Made by a program: the position numbers and the translations under genes. A stretch of DNA of 64,000 bases from Devosia sp. 67-54 (GTDB lineage: Bacteria > Pseudomonadota > Alphaproteobacteria > Rhizobiales > Devosiaceae): NCBI RefSeq assembly GCF_001899075.1, contig NZ_MKVA01000011.1, forward strand, positions 186,001-250,000, read 5' to 3'. Positions 11,426 to 60,596 of the stretch are shown in pieces. The notes below the pieces were generated by a model. The model was given only the letters and a program-made list of their open reading frames with translations, was not told the DNA's origin and ran no database searches. Numbering within the stretch: position 1 is the first letter of the stretch; the number at the start of each line of letters is the position of its first letter.

Positions 11426-11440
11426 TTTTGCAGTCGGCGC

Positions 11441-11572
11441 TCCTCTCCCGCTCGCGGGGGAGGGGGGACCACGCGATAGCGTGGTGGAGGGGGCGGCCCC
11501 ATGCTCGGTGCTAGTGGCCGCCCCCTTCCGTCACGCTGCGCGTGCCACCTTCCCTCGCAAGCGGGAAAAGGG
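11441..11572. repeat. Back-to-back GC-rich palindromic repeats
   Basis: Two copies of a repeat in opposite orientation. CTCGCGGGGGAGGGG with ACCACGCGATAGCGTGGT is followed, after a spacer, by GGCCGCCCCCTTCCG with its own arms and CTCGCAAGCGGG. Related units occur at 5549, 12631, 19259, 22975, 58154 and 60018. It carries no gene. Confidence 0.65.
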
Positions 11573-19243: not shown

Positions 19244-19258
19244 GCTTTGCAAGGCCGC

Positions 19259-19314
19259 CTCTCCCCTCGCCCCTCCGGGGATAGGGTGCCTCGCACAGCG
19301 AGGCGGGTGAGGGG
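19259..19314. repeat. Single copy of the CCCCTCGCCCC...GGTGAGGGG repeat
   Basis: CCCCTCGCCCCTCCGGGG, a GGTGCCTCGCACAGCGAGGC stem, then GGGTGAGGGG. This is the same unit, in the same orientation, as the repeat just upstream of the DUF559 genes at 58258-58306 and 60102-60148, but here it stands alone. Confidence 0.7.
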
Positions 19315-19344
19315 CCGTCAGCATCTCTCCCCCTCCACATCGTC

Positions 19345-22868: not shown

Positions 22869-22974
22869 GCTGGCGTTCTGGGGTGCTTGCCTGCAAGCGG
22901 ACCCTGTTGCTGCATCCCTTCGCTCGATGATTGCGCCGCCAGCGAATGCGGCTCTATCGCCCCCCTCCCCCTTG

Positions 22975-23125
22975 CGGGGAGGGGCCGGGGGTGGGGGCCG
23001 CAACCACCAGGCTACATAGTATCGTCCTAATGCAGCGCCATCCGCGCCGCCGGGGAGGGGCCGGGGGTGGGGGCCGCAACCACCAGCGCTACAATATCGT
23101 TCTAATGCAGCGCCGTCTGCGCCGC
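22975..23125. repeat. 76-bp tandem duplication covering the end of the epimerase-like gene
   Basis: 22975-23050 and 23051-23125 are near-identical and start with CGGGGAGGGGCCGGGGG. Each includes the final leftward codons and stop signal of the gene that ends at 23102, so the first copy is a spare 3' end. It lies in the convergent gap after the diguanylate cyclase gene, and its GC-rich half belongs to the dispersed repeat family. Confidence 0.8.
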
Positions 23126-58140: not shown

Positions 58141-58153
58141 CGATGGCGCACGG

Positions 58154-58306
58154 CCCCTCACCTGCCTCGCTGCCGCTCGGCACCCTCTCCCCAAAGGGGC
58201 GAGGGGACCTGGCTGCAGCGTCAATGGGTGGGGTCAACGGGGCTCTCGGCTCCAGCCTCCCCTCGCCCCTTTGGGGAGAGGGTGGCGCGCAGCGCCGGGT
58301 GAGGGG
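58154..58306. repeat. Head-to-head repeat pair, left end of DUF559 cassette 1
   Basis: Forward unit 58154-58207 (CCCCTCACC..., CACCCTCTCCCC, GGGGCGAGGGGA) and inverted unit 58258-58306 (TCCCCTCGCCCC, GGGGAGAGGGTGG, GGGTGAGGGG), separated by 50 nt. The end of the inverted unit supplies the likely GTG start of the nuclease-like gene. Confidence 0.8.
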
Positions 58307-58745
58307 CCGTAAGGTCACTGCCGCCGGCGTTGCCAAGGCACGCGCCCTGCGCCAGGTCCCCACCGAGGCCGAAAAGCGCCTGTGGAATCTGTTGCGCAAT
58401 CGCAGCGTCGCCGGGCTCAAATTCGTACGGCAGGTGCCGATCGATCCGTTCGTCGCCGATTTCGTATGCCGCGAGCGCATGCTTGTCATCGAAGTCGATG
58501 GCAGCCAGCATGTCGACGATGAGGCATACGACCGCCGCCGCACGGCCTTCCTCAACGCGCGTGGGTATAGCGTTCTGCGGTTCTGGAACAGCGAGGTCCT
58601 CAGGGAACTGGCTGGCGTTCACGAGCTGATCGGCCGCGTCGCCGCGGGCGAGTCTCCAGGGCTCTCACCCGACTGGCGATTCTCGCCAGCCACCCTCTCC
58701 CCGGAGGATCGAGGAGATCTGACTGCGACTGCAAGGAAACGATGA
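58299..58745 (+). CDS. DUF559 endonuclease-like protein, cassette 1
   Basis: 148 residues from the GTG at 58299; an ATG at 58143 would add 52 residues of translated repeat. Core: PTEAEKRLWNLLRNRSVAGLKFVRQVPIDPFVADFVCRERMLVIEVDGSQHVDDEAYDRRRTAFLNARGYSVLRFWNSEVLREL. This is the DUF559 fold, related to Vsr and other PD-(D/E)XK enzymes, with Asp (VADF) and Glu-X-Asp (IEVDGSQH). The last about 25 residues are translated repeat. The stop codon overlaps the next gene by four bases. Its sister lies at 60156. Confidence 0.85.
   Translation: MRGRKVTAAGVAKARALRQVPTEAEKRLWNLLRNRSVAGLKFVRQVPIDPFVADFVCRERMLVIEVDGSQHVDDEAYDRRRTAFLNARGYSVLRFWNSEVLRELAGVHELIGRVAAGESPGLSPDWRFSPATLSPEDRGDLTATARKR
58662..58717. 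repeat. Forward repeat, right end of DUF559 cassette 1
   Basis: CTCTCACCCG, a GGCGATTCTCGCC stem, CACCCTCTCCCC, then GAGGATCGAGGAGA. It is in the same orientation as 58154-58207, and the C-terminal codons of the DUF559 gene run through it. Confidence 0.75.
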
Positions 58746-59995
58746 TGACCTCTCCCGGTGAAAACCTCCGCATTAATCCCGACCGGCTGTGGAATTCCAT
58801 TCACGAGCTGGCCGAGATCGGGCCGGGGGTGGCCGGGGGCAGCAATCGGCAGACGCTGACCGACGACGACGCCAGGGGCAGAACGCTGTTCAAATCGTGG
58901 TGCGAGGGCGCCGGGCTCGGCATGGGCCTCGACCAGATGGGCACCATGTTCGCGCGCCGCGAAGGCACCGACCCGAGCCTCGATCCGGTCTATATCGGCA
59001 GCCATCTCGACACGCAGCCGACCGGCGGCCGCTATGACGGCGTGCTCGGCGTGCTGAGCGGCCTCGAAGTCATCCGCACCCTCAACGACCTCGGCATCCG
59101 GACGCGCCGGCCGATCGTCGTGGTCAACTGGACCAACGAGGAAGGCGCCCGCTTCGCCCCCGCCATGCTGGCCTCGGGCGTCTTCGCCGGCGTCCACACG
59201 CTCGACTACGCCTATGGCCGCAAGGACGGCGAGGGCAAGAGCTTCGGCGACGAGCTCAGGCGCATCGGCTGGGTCGGCGACGAGCCGGTCGGCGCCCGCA
59301 GGATGCACGCCTATTTCGAATACCACATCGAGCAGGGGCCCATCCTCGAGGCCGAGCACAAGCAGATCGGCGTGGTCACGCACGGCCAGGGCCTGTGGTG
59401 GCTCGAATTCACCCTCACCGGCAAGGAGGCGCATACCGGCTCGACGCCGATGCGCATGCGCGTCAACGCCGGCCTCGCCATGGCCCGCATCCTCGAAATG
59501 GTGCAGGAGGTGGCGATGAGCGAGCAGCCCGGCGCCGTCGGCGGCGTCGGCCAGATGCGCTTCTCGCCCAATTCGCGCAACGTGCTGCCCGGCACCGTGG
59601 TGTTCACCGTCGACATCCGTTCGCCCGAGCAGAAAAAGCTCGACCGCATGCGGGCGAGGATCGAGGCCGAGGCGCCAAAGATCTGCGCCGCGCTGGGCGT
59701 CGGCTGCGCCGTGGAGGCGGTCGGCCATTTCGATCCGGTGACGTTCGACCCGACGCTCGTCGCCCGCGTCCGCGCCGCCGCCGAAAAGCTCGGCTACAGC
59801 CACATGGACATCATCTCCGGCGCCGGCCACGATGCCTGCTGGACCAACAAGGTGGCGCCCTCGACCATGATCATGTGCCCCTGCGTCGATGGGCTCAGCC
59901 ACAACGAAGCCGAAGACATCTCCAAGGACTGGGCCGCCGCCGGCGCCGACGTCCTGTTCCACGCCGTGGTGGAAACGGCGGAGATCGTGGAGTGA
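58742..59995 (+). CDS. M20-family Zn-dependent hydrolase (beta-ureidopropionase)
   Basis: Hydrolyses N-carbamoyl-beta-alanine, and the methyl analogue from thymine, to the beta-amino acid, CO2 and ammonia. The 417-residue protein has the M20/hydantoinase-carbamoylase pattern: YIGSHLDTQPTGGRYDGVLG, WTNEEGARFAPAMLASGVF, YFEYHIEQGPILE, GKEAHTGSTPM and SGAGHDACW. AAGGA lies before the tandem ATGs at 58742/58745. The gene order (dehydrogenase, hydrolase, HydA, transporter) is a reductive pyrimidine pathway. It is flanked on both sides by DUF559 cassettes. Confidence 0.92.
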   Translation: MMTSPGENLRINPDRLWNSIHELAEIGPGVAGGSNRQTLTDDDARGRTLFKSWCEGAGLGMGLDQMGTMFARREGTDPSLDPVYIGSHLDTQPTGGRYDGVLGVLSGLEVIRTLNDLGIRTRRPIVVVNWTNEEGARFAPAMLASGVFAGVHTLDYAYGRKDGEGKSFGDELRRIGWVGDEPVGARRMHAYFEYHIEQGPILEAEHKQIGVVTHGQGLWWLEFTLTGKEAHTGSTPMRMRVNAGLAMARILEMVQEVAMSEQPGAVGGVGQMRFSPNSRNVLPGTVVFTVDIRSPEQKKLDRMRARIEAEAPKICAALGVGCAVEAVGHFDPVTFDPTLVARVRAAAEKLGYSHMDIISGAGHDACWTNKVAPSTMIMCPCVDGLSHNEAEDISKDWAAAGADVLFHAVVETAEIVE

Positions 59996-60017
59996 TGGGT
60001 GGCGGGATCGCAAAGGT

Positions 60018-60148
60018 CCCCTCACCCGGACTTCGCCTTGCGAAGTCTGACCTCTCCCCCAAGGGAGAGGTCAGGGTGCGGCACGATCTTGCCCACGCAC
60101 CACCTCTCCCTGGGGGGAGAGGTCGCCGCGCAGCGGCGGGTGAGGGGG
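60018..60148. repeat. Head-to-head repeat pair, left end of DUF559 cassette 2
   Basis: Forward unit 60018-60071 (CCCCTCACCCGGACTTCGC, ACCTCTCCCCCAAGGGAGAGGT) and inverted unit 60102-60148 (ACCTCTCCC, GGGAGAGGTCGCCGCG, GGGTGAGGGGG). The forward unit is repeated at 60512-60565 with two differences in 54 bases. Confidence 0.85.
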
Positions 60149-60155
60149 CCTTTCT

Positions 60156-60593
60156 GTGAGCATCCTCAAGACCAAATTTGCGGCCGGAGCGGCCAAGCGG
60201 TTGCGCGCCAATTCGACCGATGCCGAGCGCAAGCTCTGGTCGCGCCTGCGTGACCGCCGCCTGCTCGGTTTCAAGTTCGTCCGCCAGCAGCCGGTCGGCC
60301 CGTTCATTGCCGATTTTGCCTGCCGAGAGGCCGATCTCGTCATCGAGCTGGATGGCAGCCAGCATGCCGAGGACGACGCCGTGCGCTACGATTTGCGTCG
60401 CACCGCGGTGCTTGCCGAGCACGGCTACGAAGTGCTTCGCTTCTGGAATACCGACGCCCTTATCCACACCGACGGCGTCCTCGAGGTGATTGTGGCCCAT
60501 TTGCAGAAGGCCCCCTCACCCGGACTTCGCTTTGCGAAGTCCGACCTCTCCCCCAAGGGAGAGGTGGGGGCGGCGGCGCAGCAGGAGGCATAG
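60156..60593 (+). CDS. DUF559 endonuclease-like protein, cassette 2
   Basis: 145 residues, GTG start eight bases after the inverted repeat. Core: STDAERKLWSRLRDRRLLGFKFVRQQPVGPFIADFACREADLVIELDGSQHAEDD...LRRTAVLAEHGYEVLRFWNTDAL. By eye about half of the core residues match the cassette 1 protein. Catalytic-type Asp (IADF) and Glu-X-Asp (IELDGSQH) are kept. The C-terminal tail (APSPGLRFAKSDLSPKGEV) is translated repeat. The ribosome site of hydA (GGAGG) lies in its last codons. A nuclease activity is inferred from the fold only. Confidence 0.88.
   Translation: MSILKTKFAAGAAKRLRANSTDAERKLWSRLRDRRLLGFKFVRQQPVGPFIADFACREADLVIELDGSQHAEDDAVRYDLRRTAVLAEHGYEVLRFWNTDALIHTDGVLEVIVAHLQKAPSPGLRFAKSDLSPKGEVGAAAQQEA
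60512..60565. repeat. Forward repeat, right end of DUF559 cassette 2
   Basis: 54-bp copy of 60018-60071 with two substitutions, in the same orientation, starting 494 nt downstream of it. The coding frame of the DUF559 gene passes through it without a stop. Confidence 0.88.
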
Positions 60594-60596
60594 CAA

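Follow-up and report, generated by a model that had tools for sequence, protein, structure and literature searches.

The BoxC/PIT/TM elements of Escherichia coli have been known since the 1990s; their triplexes are stable in vitro and the loci that they mark are variable, and the accessible part of the paper treating them reports no transposase or integrase remnants around the TMECO sites, its authors leaving the cause of the instability unclear (PMC4666352). The other close parallel is REP/RAYT, in which short repeats are paired with an HUH/Y1 transposase. Here we describe a locus resembling both. It lies in a 64,000-nucleotide (nt) stretch of the Devosia sp. 67-54 genome (contig NZ_MKVA01000011.1, positions 186,001 to 250,000; hereafter the window), where gap 1 (58141-58741) and gap 2 (59996-60596), 601 nt apiece, flank an amidohydrolase gene (58742-59995). 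Both gaps hold, as the preliminary description of this DNA had noted, the same arrangement: a hairpin repeat unit on the plus strand, an inverted unit, a gene matching the DUF559 family (PF04480) and a further plus-strand unit. We consider it fairly probable that DUF559 genes together with such tagged triplex-hairpin repeats make up a two-part system operating in the manner of REP/RAYT.

Tagged hairpin units beside DUF559 genes

Read from the gene outward, each unit consists of a pyrimidine tag (CCCTCACCC-like in the window), a spacer in which a small hairpin often forms, followed by the pyrimidine arm, the loop and the purine arm. DUF559 was present in 152 of 297 genomes from the window's order and in 108 of 299 from its phylum. 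The analysis drew on 155 DUF559 loci, of which 149 could be oriented and six were omitted because of contig ends or because the motif was not found. Loci L034-L063 and L094-L115 were those scoring highest in their respective searches and L116-L215 were taken in listed order, so that weak DUF559 matches were hardly sampled; a named set comprised the best 80 of 567 relatives. No more than 250 nt from DUF559, a pyrimidine-arm hairpin was present in 60 of 66 loci from the order, 75 of 80 from the phylum and 69 of 80 named loci, and a triplex-tagged unit was found in 55, 69 and 66 loci of these sets, respectively. The named loci with a tagged unit include records labelled Chloroflexi, Planctomycetota, Candidatus Binatia, Candidatus Rokuibacteriota, Desulfobulbaceae and candidate division FCPU426. 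This enrichment, which the preliminary description had proposed as a check, was strong, and it was absent from control loci of the window's order, with the hairpin beside 0 of 28 Vsr and 2 of 27 ParE genes and no tagged units (control genomes were chosen irrespective of DUF559, and two Vsr and three ParE loci were discarded as too short).

The units are also placed and oriented with respect to the gene. In the order and phylum sets, pyrimidine-left hairpins reached 5.4-7.2 per kilobase (kb) over the 150 nt next to the gene and 0-0.5 per kb at distances above 500 nt, and purine-left hairpins near DUF559 were almost absent. The density of tagged units was 3.55 per kb near the gene versus 0.063 per kb from 800 nt outward, the gene end being taken as 2806 for most loci and thus a few bases off for some. 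On both sides, the tag of the nearest unit mostly faces the DUF559 gene: across 229 loci, the nearest upstream unit was '-' in 126, '+' in 22 and unclear in 23, and the nearest downstream unit was '+' in 115, '-' in 17 and unclear in 30. The two flanking units resemble each other, the first 8 nt of the arm being common to both in 90 of 127 loci, where 13.4 would be expected and 2000 shuffles gave at most 26.

The purine-motif triplex code comprises G.GC, A.AT and T.AT, and tag and hairpin arm obey this code on the G-rich strand. A tag picked without regard to the arm was present in 182 of 225 nearest units. In a test that kept only the unit nearest the gene, a choice made after the result of a first test on all units, and in which the tag was picked independently of the arm, the mirror relation of tag to arm fitted better in 80 of 139 distinct pairs, the direct relation in 14, and 45 were tied (p 2e-12, the pairs being phylogenetically non-independent). 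Several of the 14 pairs favouring the direct relation resemble mis-picked tags. The mean mirror score was 7.80 versus 6.33 (standard deviation 0.10) under shuffled partners, and in 46 of 50 cases an A in the tag stood opposite a T once the arm was mirrored, T accounting for 26% of the letters in arms. The letters of arm and tag differ widely among loci, and at locus L215 the arms and tags of two units differ in step.

Repeat number follows the presence of the gene. The pattern CCCTCAYCCN{4,34}TCTCC had a median count of 21 in the 152 genomes with DUF559 and 2 in the 145 without (p 8e-29; counts take in the units within cassettes), and at least 10 repeats were found in 104 of the former versus 11 of the latter. 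None of 2000 within-family permutations over 23 families matched the observed difference, with 23 genomes holding only weak DUF559 matches treated as lacking the gene. A parallel relation was found in E. coli, where ycjD, a DUF559 gene, is flanked by sapF and fabI, has a BoxC alongside and is carried by about 3,363 of 5,426 genomes. Further BoxC-like places had a median of 21 in 37 ycjD carriers and 6 in 22 non-carriers (p 2e-8) among 59 evenly spaced genomes, one plasmid row (H140) of 60 having been dropped. An efflux operon occupies the site in two E. coli regions that lack ycjD, as is likewise given in the accessible part of PMC12817139. Three chromosome-sized PLSDB records, NZ_OL790696.1, NZ_CP141089.1 and NZ_CP119142.1, are filed as plasmids.

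The type of repeat is tied to the type of protein. The proteins of cassettes 1 and 2, D1 and D2, matched PF04480 with 126.1 and 128.1 bits (cut-off 20.6); at E 0.001 a Pfam scan returned only PF04480 and PF18741 for them, PF03852 (Vsr) not being among the matches. Residues E13, D42, E53, D55, G56 and H59 are invariant across 20 sequences, D1 and D2 included. The DUF559 profile matches structure 3hrl (4e-38) and the 'mobile intron protein' 3r3p (4.5e-5), which we take to be the homing endonuclease I-Bth0305I, and is weakly like Vsr (1cw0, E 0.6). The portion of PMC1189080 consulted places YcjD among the PD-(D/E)XK proteins and reports that Vsr is retrieved with its profile. An anti-phage role for DUF559 was considered and rejected, the PADLOC matches being weak and only to parts of much larger proteins. 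Mapped on the protein tree, arm type changed 62 times over 168 loci versus a mean of 100 and a minimum of 94 in 200 shuffles; this tree used only arm types seen at least four times, with the arm type of L002 (D1) set by hand. The nearest protein in another genome had the same repeat type in 67 of 138 cases, and same-genome paralogues shared it in 42 of 154 ordered pairs, chance being 0.11. Within genomes, DUF559 pairs of one type averaged an identity of 0.50 versus 0.45 for pairs of different types (p 0.01); the best of 21 same-type pairs reached 71% identity, and 56 different-type pairs averaged 45%.

The two Devosia cassettes and their history

Cassette 1 begins with a plus-strand unit (58152-58207) composed of tag CCCCTCACC, a spacer and arms CCCTCTCCCC / GGGGCGAGGGG. 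The inverted unit that follows (58256-58308, minus strand) has its tag toward the gene and forms with the first a REPIN-like doublet of 151 nt. D1 (58299-58745, plus strand; PF04480 E 7.1e-37, with the conserved residues) likely starts at the GTG at 58299, inside the tag of the inverted unit. The third unit (58661-58717, plus strand) has a degraded right arm. Cassette 2 repeats this order with a plus-strand unit at 60018-60072 (tag CCCCTCACCC, a second-loop hairpin and arms ACCTCTCCC / GGGAGAGGT), an inverted unit at 60101-60149 on the minus strand whose tag again points toward the gene and which completes a 128-nt doublet, D2 at 60156-60593 on the plus strand (PF04480 E 1.6e-37), and a third, plus-strand unit at 60512-60566 with 92% identity to the first over 64 nt. 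The preliminary description had both reading frames ending inside the right repeat; instead both read through it, D1 to a stop at 58745 that overlaps the ATG of the next gene and D2 to a stop at 60593.

An Rfam scan of these sequences gave no match reaching the gathering score. The best by E-value was whalefall-1 RNA, with minus-strand matches at 60512-60567 and 60018-60073 of 28.9 and 27.7 bits against a gathering score of 37, and that RNA family could itself belong to these DNA repeats.

The window's genome holds two repeat families (30 and 82 units), each beside different DUF559 genes. The pattern of the window family, CCCTCACCN{8,30}CTCTCCC, occurs at 30 places in 4.21 Mb (megabases), with none for the reversed control; the two cassettes hold five of these. 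Twenty of the 30 units are paired as ten +/- doublets of 124-151 nt, in which similarity ends 2-3 nt beyond the tags. Family B (CCCACCCCC..CCCCTCCCC), with 82 copies and none for its control, lies beside the third DUF559 gene of the genome at C11:767973. Family B units also stand at several contig ends of the assembly (C4:64, C5:121 and 1216905, C9:59, C11:64), where the assembly seems to break at these repeats. Gene-free repeats elsewhere in the window, already remarked on in the preliminary description, were borne out at three places: a family B unit at 22968-22995 on the minus strand, of the type beside the third DUF559 gene; a window-family unit, slightly degraded, at 19250-19315; and a unit of another type at 11440-11490, with a CCCCTCCACC tag, a hairpin and a C-rich arm on the minus strand, which resembles units next to DUF559 in loci L166-L168.

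The history of the locus was followed in 30 loci around the amidohydrolase gene, with gap lengths accurate to within a few nt (602 for a true 601) and DUF559 detected by tblastn with D1 and D2 only. DUF559 occupied gap 1 in 9 of 26 measurable loci and gap 2 in 11 of 28, and both gaps in four. Gap pairs in the other twin carriers measured about 567/552, 565/611 and 657/598 nt; the equal length of 601 nt, correctly observed at first, is therefore a coincidence, and a size constraint was rejected. Cassette-free orthologous gaps, which had been suggested as a check, were found in close relatives: in three with a 92-93% identical amidohydrolase the first gap is only 7-10 nt as read from the sequence. 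Their second gap is about 12 and about 65 nt in two, and in the third (L065) about 620 nt, the stretch between the amidohydrolase gene and hydA there containing other small open reading frames and not a DUF559 cassette. The amidohydrolase-hydA gap is perhaps a hot spot at which small genes settle.

A recent duplication of either cassette, already ruled out in the preliminary description, was rejected: D1 and D2 are 51-53% identical and fall in separate clades. Twenty DUF559 proteins grouped by gap, with 3 changes versus 6.9 when shuffled (0 and 2 of 500 shuffles were as low), and in the near relatives L082 and L083 the gap 2 proteins are sisters and the gap 1 proteins belong to different clades. 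Both cassettes appear to have been inherited largely in place, with replacement in some cases, and the twin arrangement is old or repeatedly refilled rather than a recent pair.

A candidate two-part system and its alternatives

Under the reading that we favour, a low-copy nuclease gene, mostly inherited in place, would sit between inverted units of its own repeat family, and the multi-copy part would consist of gene-free units, often as +/- doublets bounded by tags. When the G-rich strand becomes single-stranded, for example during replication, the unit would fold so that its tag runs along the hairpin's purine arm; the DUF559 protein would recognise this fold and nick or cut at the tag, and repair from another copy could then place units or doublets elsewhere and keep the copies alike. 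Recognition, cutting and spreading by DUF559 are steps that we infer. It is also conceivable, and we propose it tentatively, that DUF559 is the missing driver of the BoxC/PIT/TM repeats and that this PD-(D/E)XK nuclease reads the triplex fold as its recognition signal. The suggestion in the preliminary description that DUF559 spreads or maintains the repeat thus gains from the enrichment, the cassette-free gaps in close relatives, the copy-number relation and the tie between repeat and protein type, and stays conditional in that the cassettes look mostly inherited and no clean insertion of a unit was caught.

Several observations weigh against this reading. No such hairpin was found at 6 of 66, 5 of 80 and 11 of 80 DUF559 loci in the order, phylum and named sets. 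The first mirror test, on all units near the gene, gave 53 pairs better in mirror, 39 better in direct relation and 63 ties among 155 (p 0.17), a weak and non-significant result from a cruder set that included outer units with the tag on the other side. For CCCCCCTTTT-type units (L128, L146, L164) a direct relation fits roughly as well, the direct reading also sets A opposite T in 32 of 44 cases, and the odd base was G instead of A in 9 of 59 mirror cases. In vivo footprinting showed no triplex at BoxC, according to the accessible text of PMC4666352. At least 10 repeats are still carried by 11 of the 145 genomes without DUF559, and 22 of 129 genomes with a strong DUF559 match have four or fewer, the pattern missing other repeat families. 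Joint inheritance of a gene with its flanking units would also produce some of the link seen between protein type and repeat type. Target duplication in the ten doublets was convincing in none, two 4-5 nt matches being all that was seen.

The E. coli data add to these points. Nine of 22 ycjD-less rows keep 11-23 BoxC-like places, and, the comparison being structured by strain group, it contains few independent events. No clean BoxC insertion was found at ypfG-tkt, ytfQ-ytfR, ybcF-purK or tldD-aaeR. The first three vary strongly among strains and tldD-aaeR only by a few bases in length; in ypfG-tkt and ytfQ-ytfR alleles, entire intergenic stretches are replaced. Such variation of BoxC accords with the instability given in the part of PMC4666352 available. 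In ypfG-tktB (L318, L323-L326), a BoxC or a REP-like stretch stands between identical flanks, depending on the strain.

The repeats might instead be landing sites, spread by slippage or RecA, between which DUF559 inserts its own gene as a homing-type parasite. The match of the DUF559 profile to a homing endonuclease chain, the empty gaps in close relatives and the different DUF559 lineages held by the same gap (gap 1 of L082 versus L083) would all be consistent with this, but landing sites alone leave unexplained both the low repeat number of genomes without the gene and the tracking of protein type by repeat type, and DUF559 proteins within a genome are far apart, unlike those of a spreading gene; we regard this explanation as unlikely. 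Less likely still is that DUF559 is a housekeeping structure-specific or mismatch nuclease of the Vsr kind and that the units, without spreading, regulate its gene or are a substrate that it polices. Caulobacter VsrA has a DUF559 domain and is linked to cytosine methylation and DNA damage, as stated in the part of PMC12907096 consulted, and the profile likeness to Vsr, though weak, points the same way. Vsr genes proper, however, lack such units, and a nuclease removing repeats should leave fewer of them where it is present, whereas about ten times more were observed.

Movement of the repeats as REPs by a RAYT/IS200-type Y1 transposase, with DUF559 a bystander, would fit the layout, which is as described for RAYT genes in the accessible portion of PMC2817692. 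This is contradicted for the genome studied here, which has no Y1_Tnp match, and RAYT was rejected as the mover of its repeats; Y1_Tnp was present in only 46 of the 297 genomes, and the median repeat count was 2 where it occurred without DUF559 (21 genomes) and 54 where both were present (25 genomes), making this account very improbable. Ordinary terminators, or chance GC-rich palindromes beside any small gene, are hardly credible as a source of the hairpins even though these are intergenic and some lie 3' of genes: the two small-gene control families contradict it, pyrimidine-left arms dominate, the tags face the gene from both sides, and PIT elements had no terminator activity in the text seen of PMC4666352.

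Relation to BoxC, REP and homing systems

If DUF559 does drive the BoxC/PIT/TM repeats, a REPIN-like system unrelated to HUH transposases would extend across Pseudomonadota and several other phyla, and REP/RAYT-type repeat systems would have a second, unrelated enzyme class. The DUF559 protein would then naturally read intrastrand triplexes in DNA. The substrate of the DUF559/YcjD nuclease family is not settled, and BoxC is a repeat around which no mobility gene has been reported; joined, both would become addressable in E. coli K-12. No link of DUF559 or ycjD to these repeats was found in the part of the open-access literature covered, preprints excluded, and the words 'DUF', 'endonuclease' and 'ycjD' do not occur in the main text of PMC4666352 in a word search.

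Like the window units, BoxC/PIT/TMECO elements have a pyrimidine arm, a loop, a purine arm and a further purine stretch fitting a purine-motif triplex; both are scattered in intergenic regions, some as inverted pairs, and BoxC sites vary between strains. The window units depart from the published TMECO pattern in their second loop, which is 14-22 nt and could form its own hairpin, an extra loop hairpin being frequent in them. TMECO has a 3-nt second loop, and the search in PMC4666352, as far as its accessible text goes, allowed loops of 1-6 nt; since the second loop is at least 5 nt in 98 of 182 units, and up to about 40, much of the wider family lies beyond that search. The same text gives no gene associated with BoxC/PIT/TMECO, whereas the window units flank DUF559, and it reports triplex folding in solution for the E. 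coli sequence.

With respect to nucleases, D1 and D2 stand far above the PF04480 cut-off and thus belong with the DUF559/YcjD/Vsr-like proteins (structures 3hrl, 3r3p). A homing endonuclease would cut an empty allele and copy its gene there; both empty and filled gaps occur at this locus. The likeness to REP/RAYT lies in a gene between inverted repeats, many gene-free repeats often arranged as tag-ended +/- doublets, and a repeat type tied to the protein. The enzyme differs, being DUF559 (PD-(D/E)XK) in a genome without Y1_Tnp rather than an HUH/Y1 transposase, as does the tag, which is CCCTCAYCC-like in units with triplex symmetry and is GTAG or CGTC in REPs (PMC3733652, in the part consulted). 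Membership in REP/RAYT therefore fails on enzyme and tag, and the resemblance would lie in the way of working.

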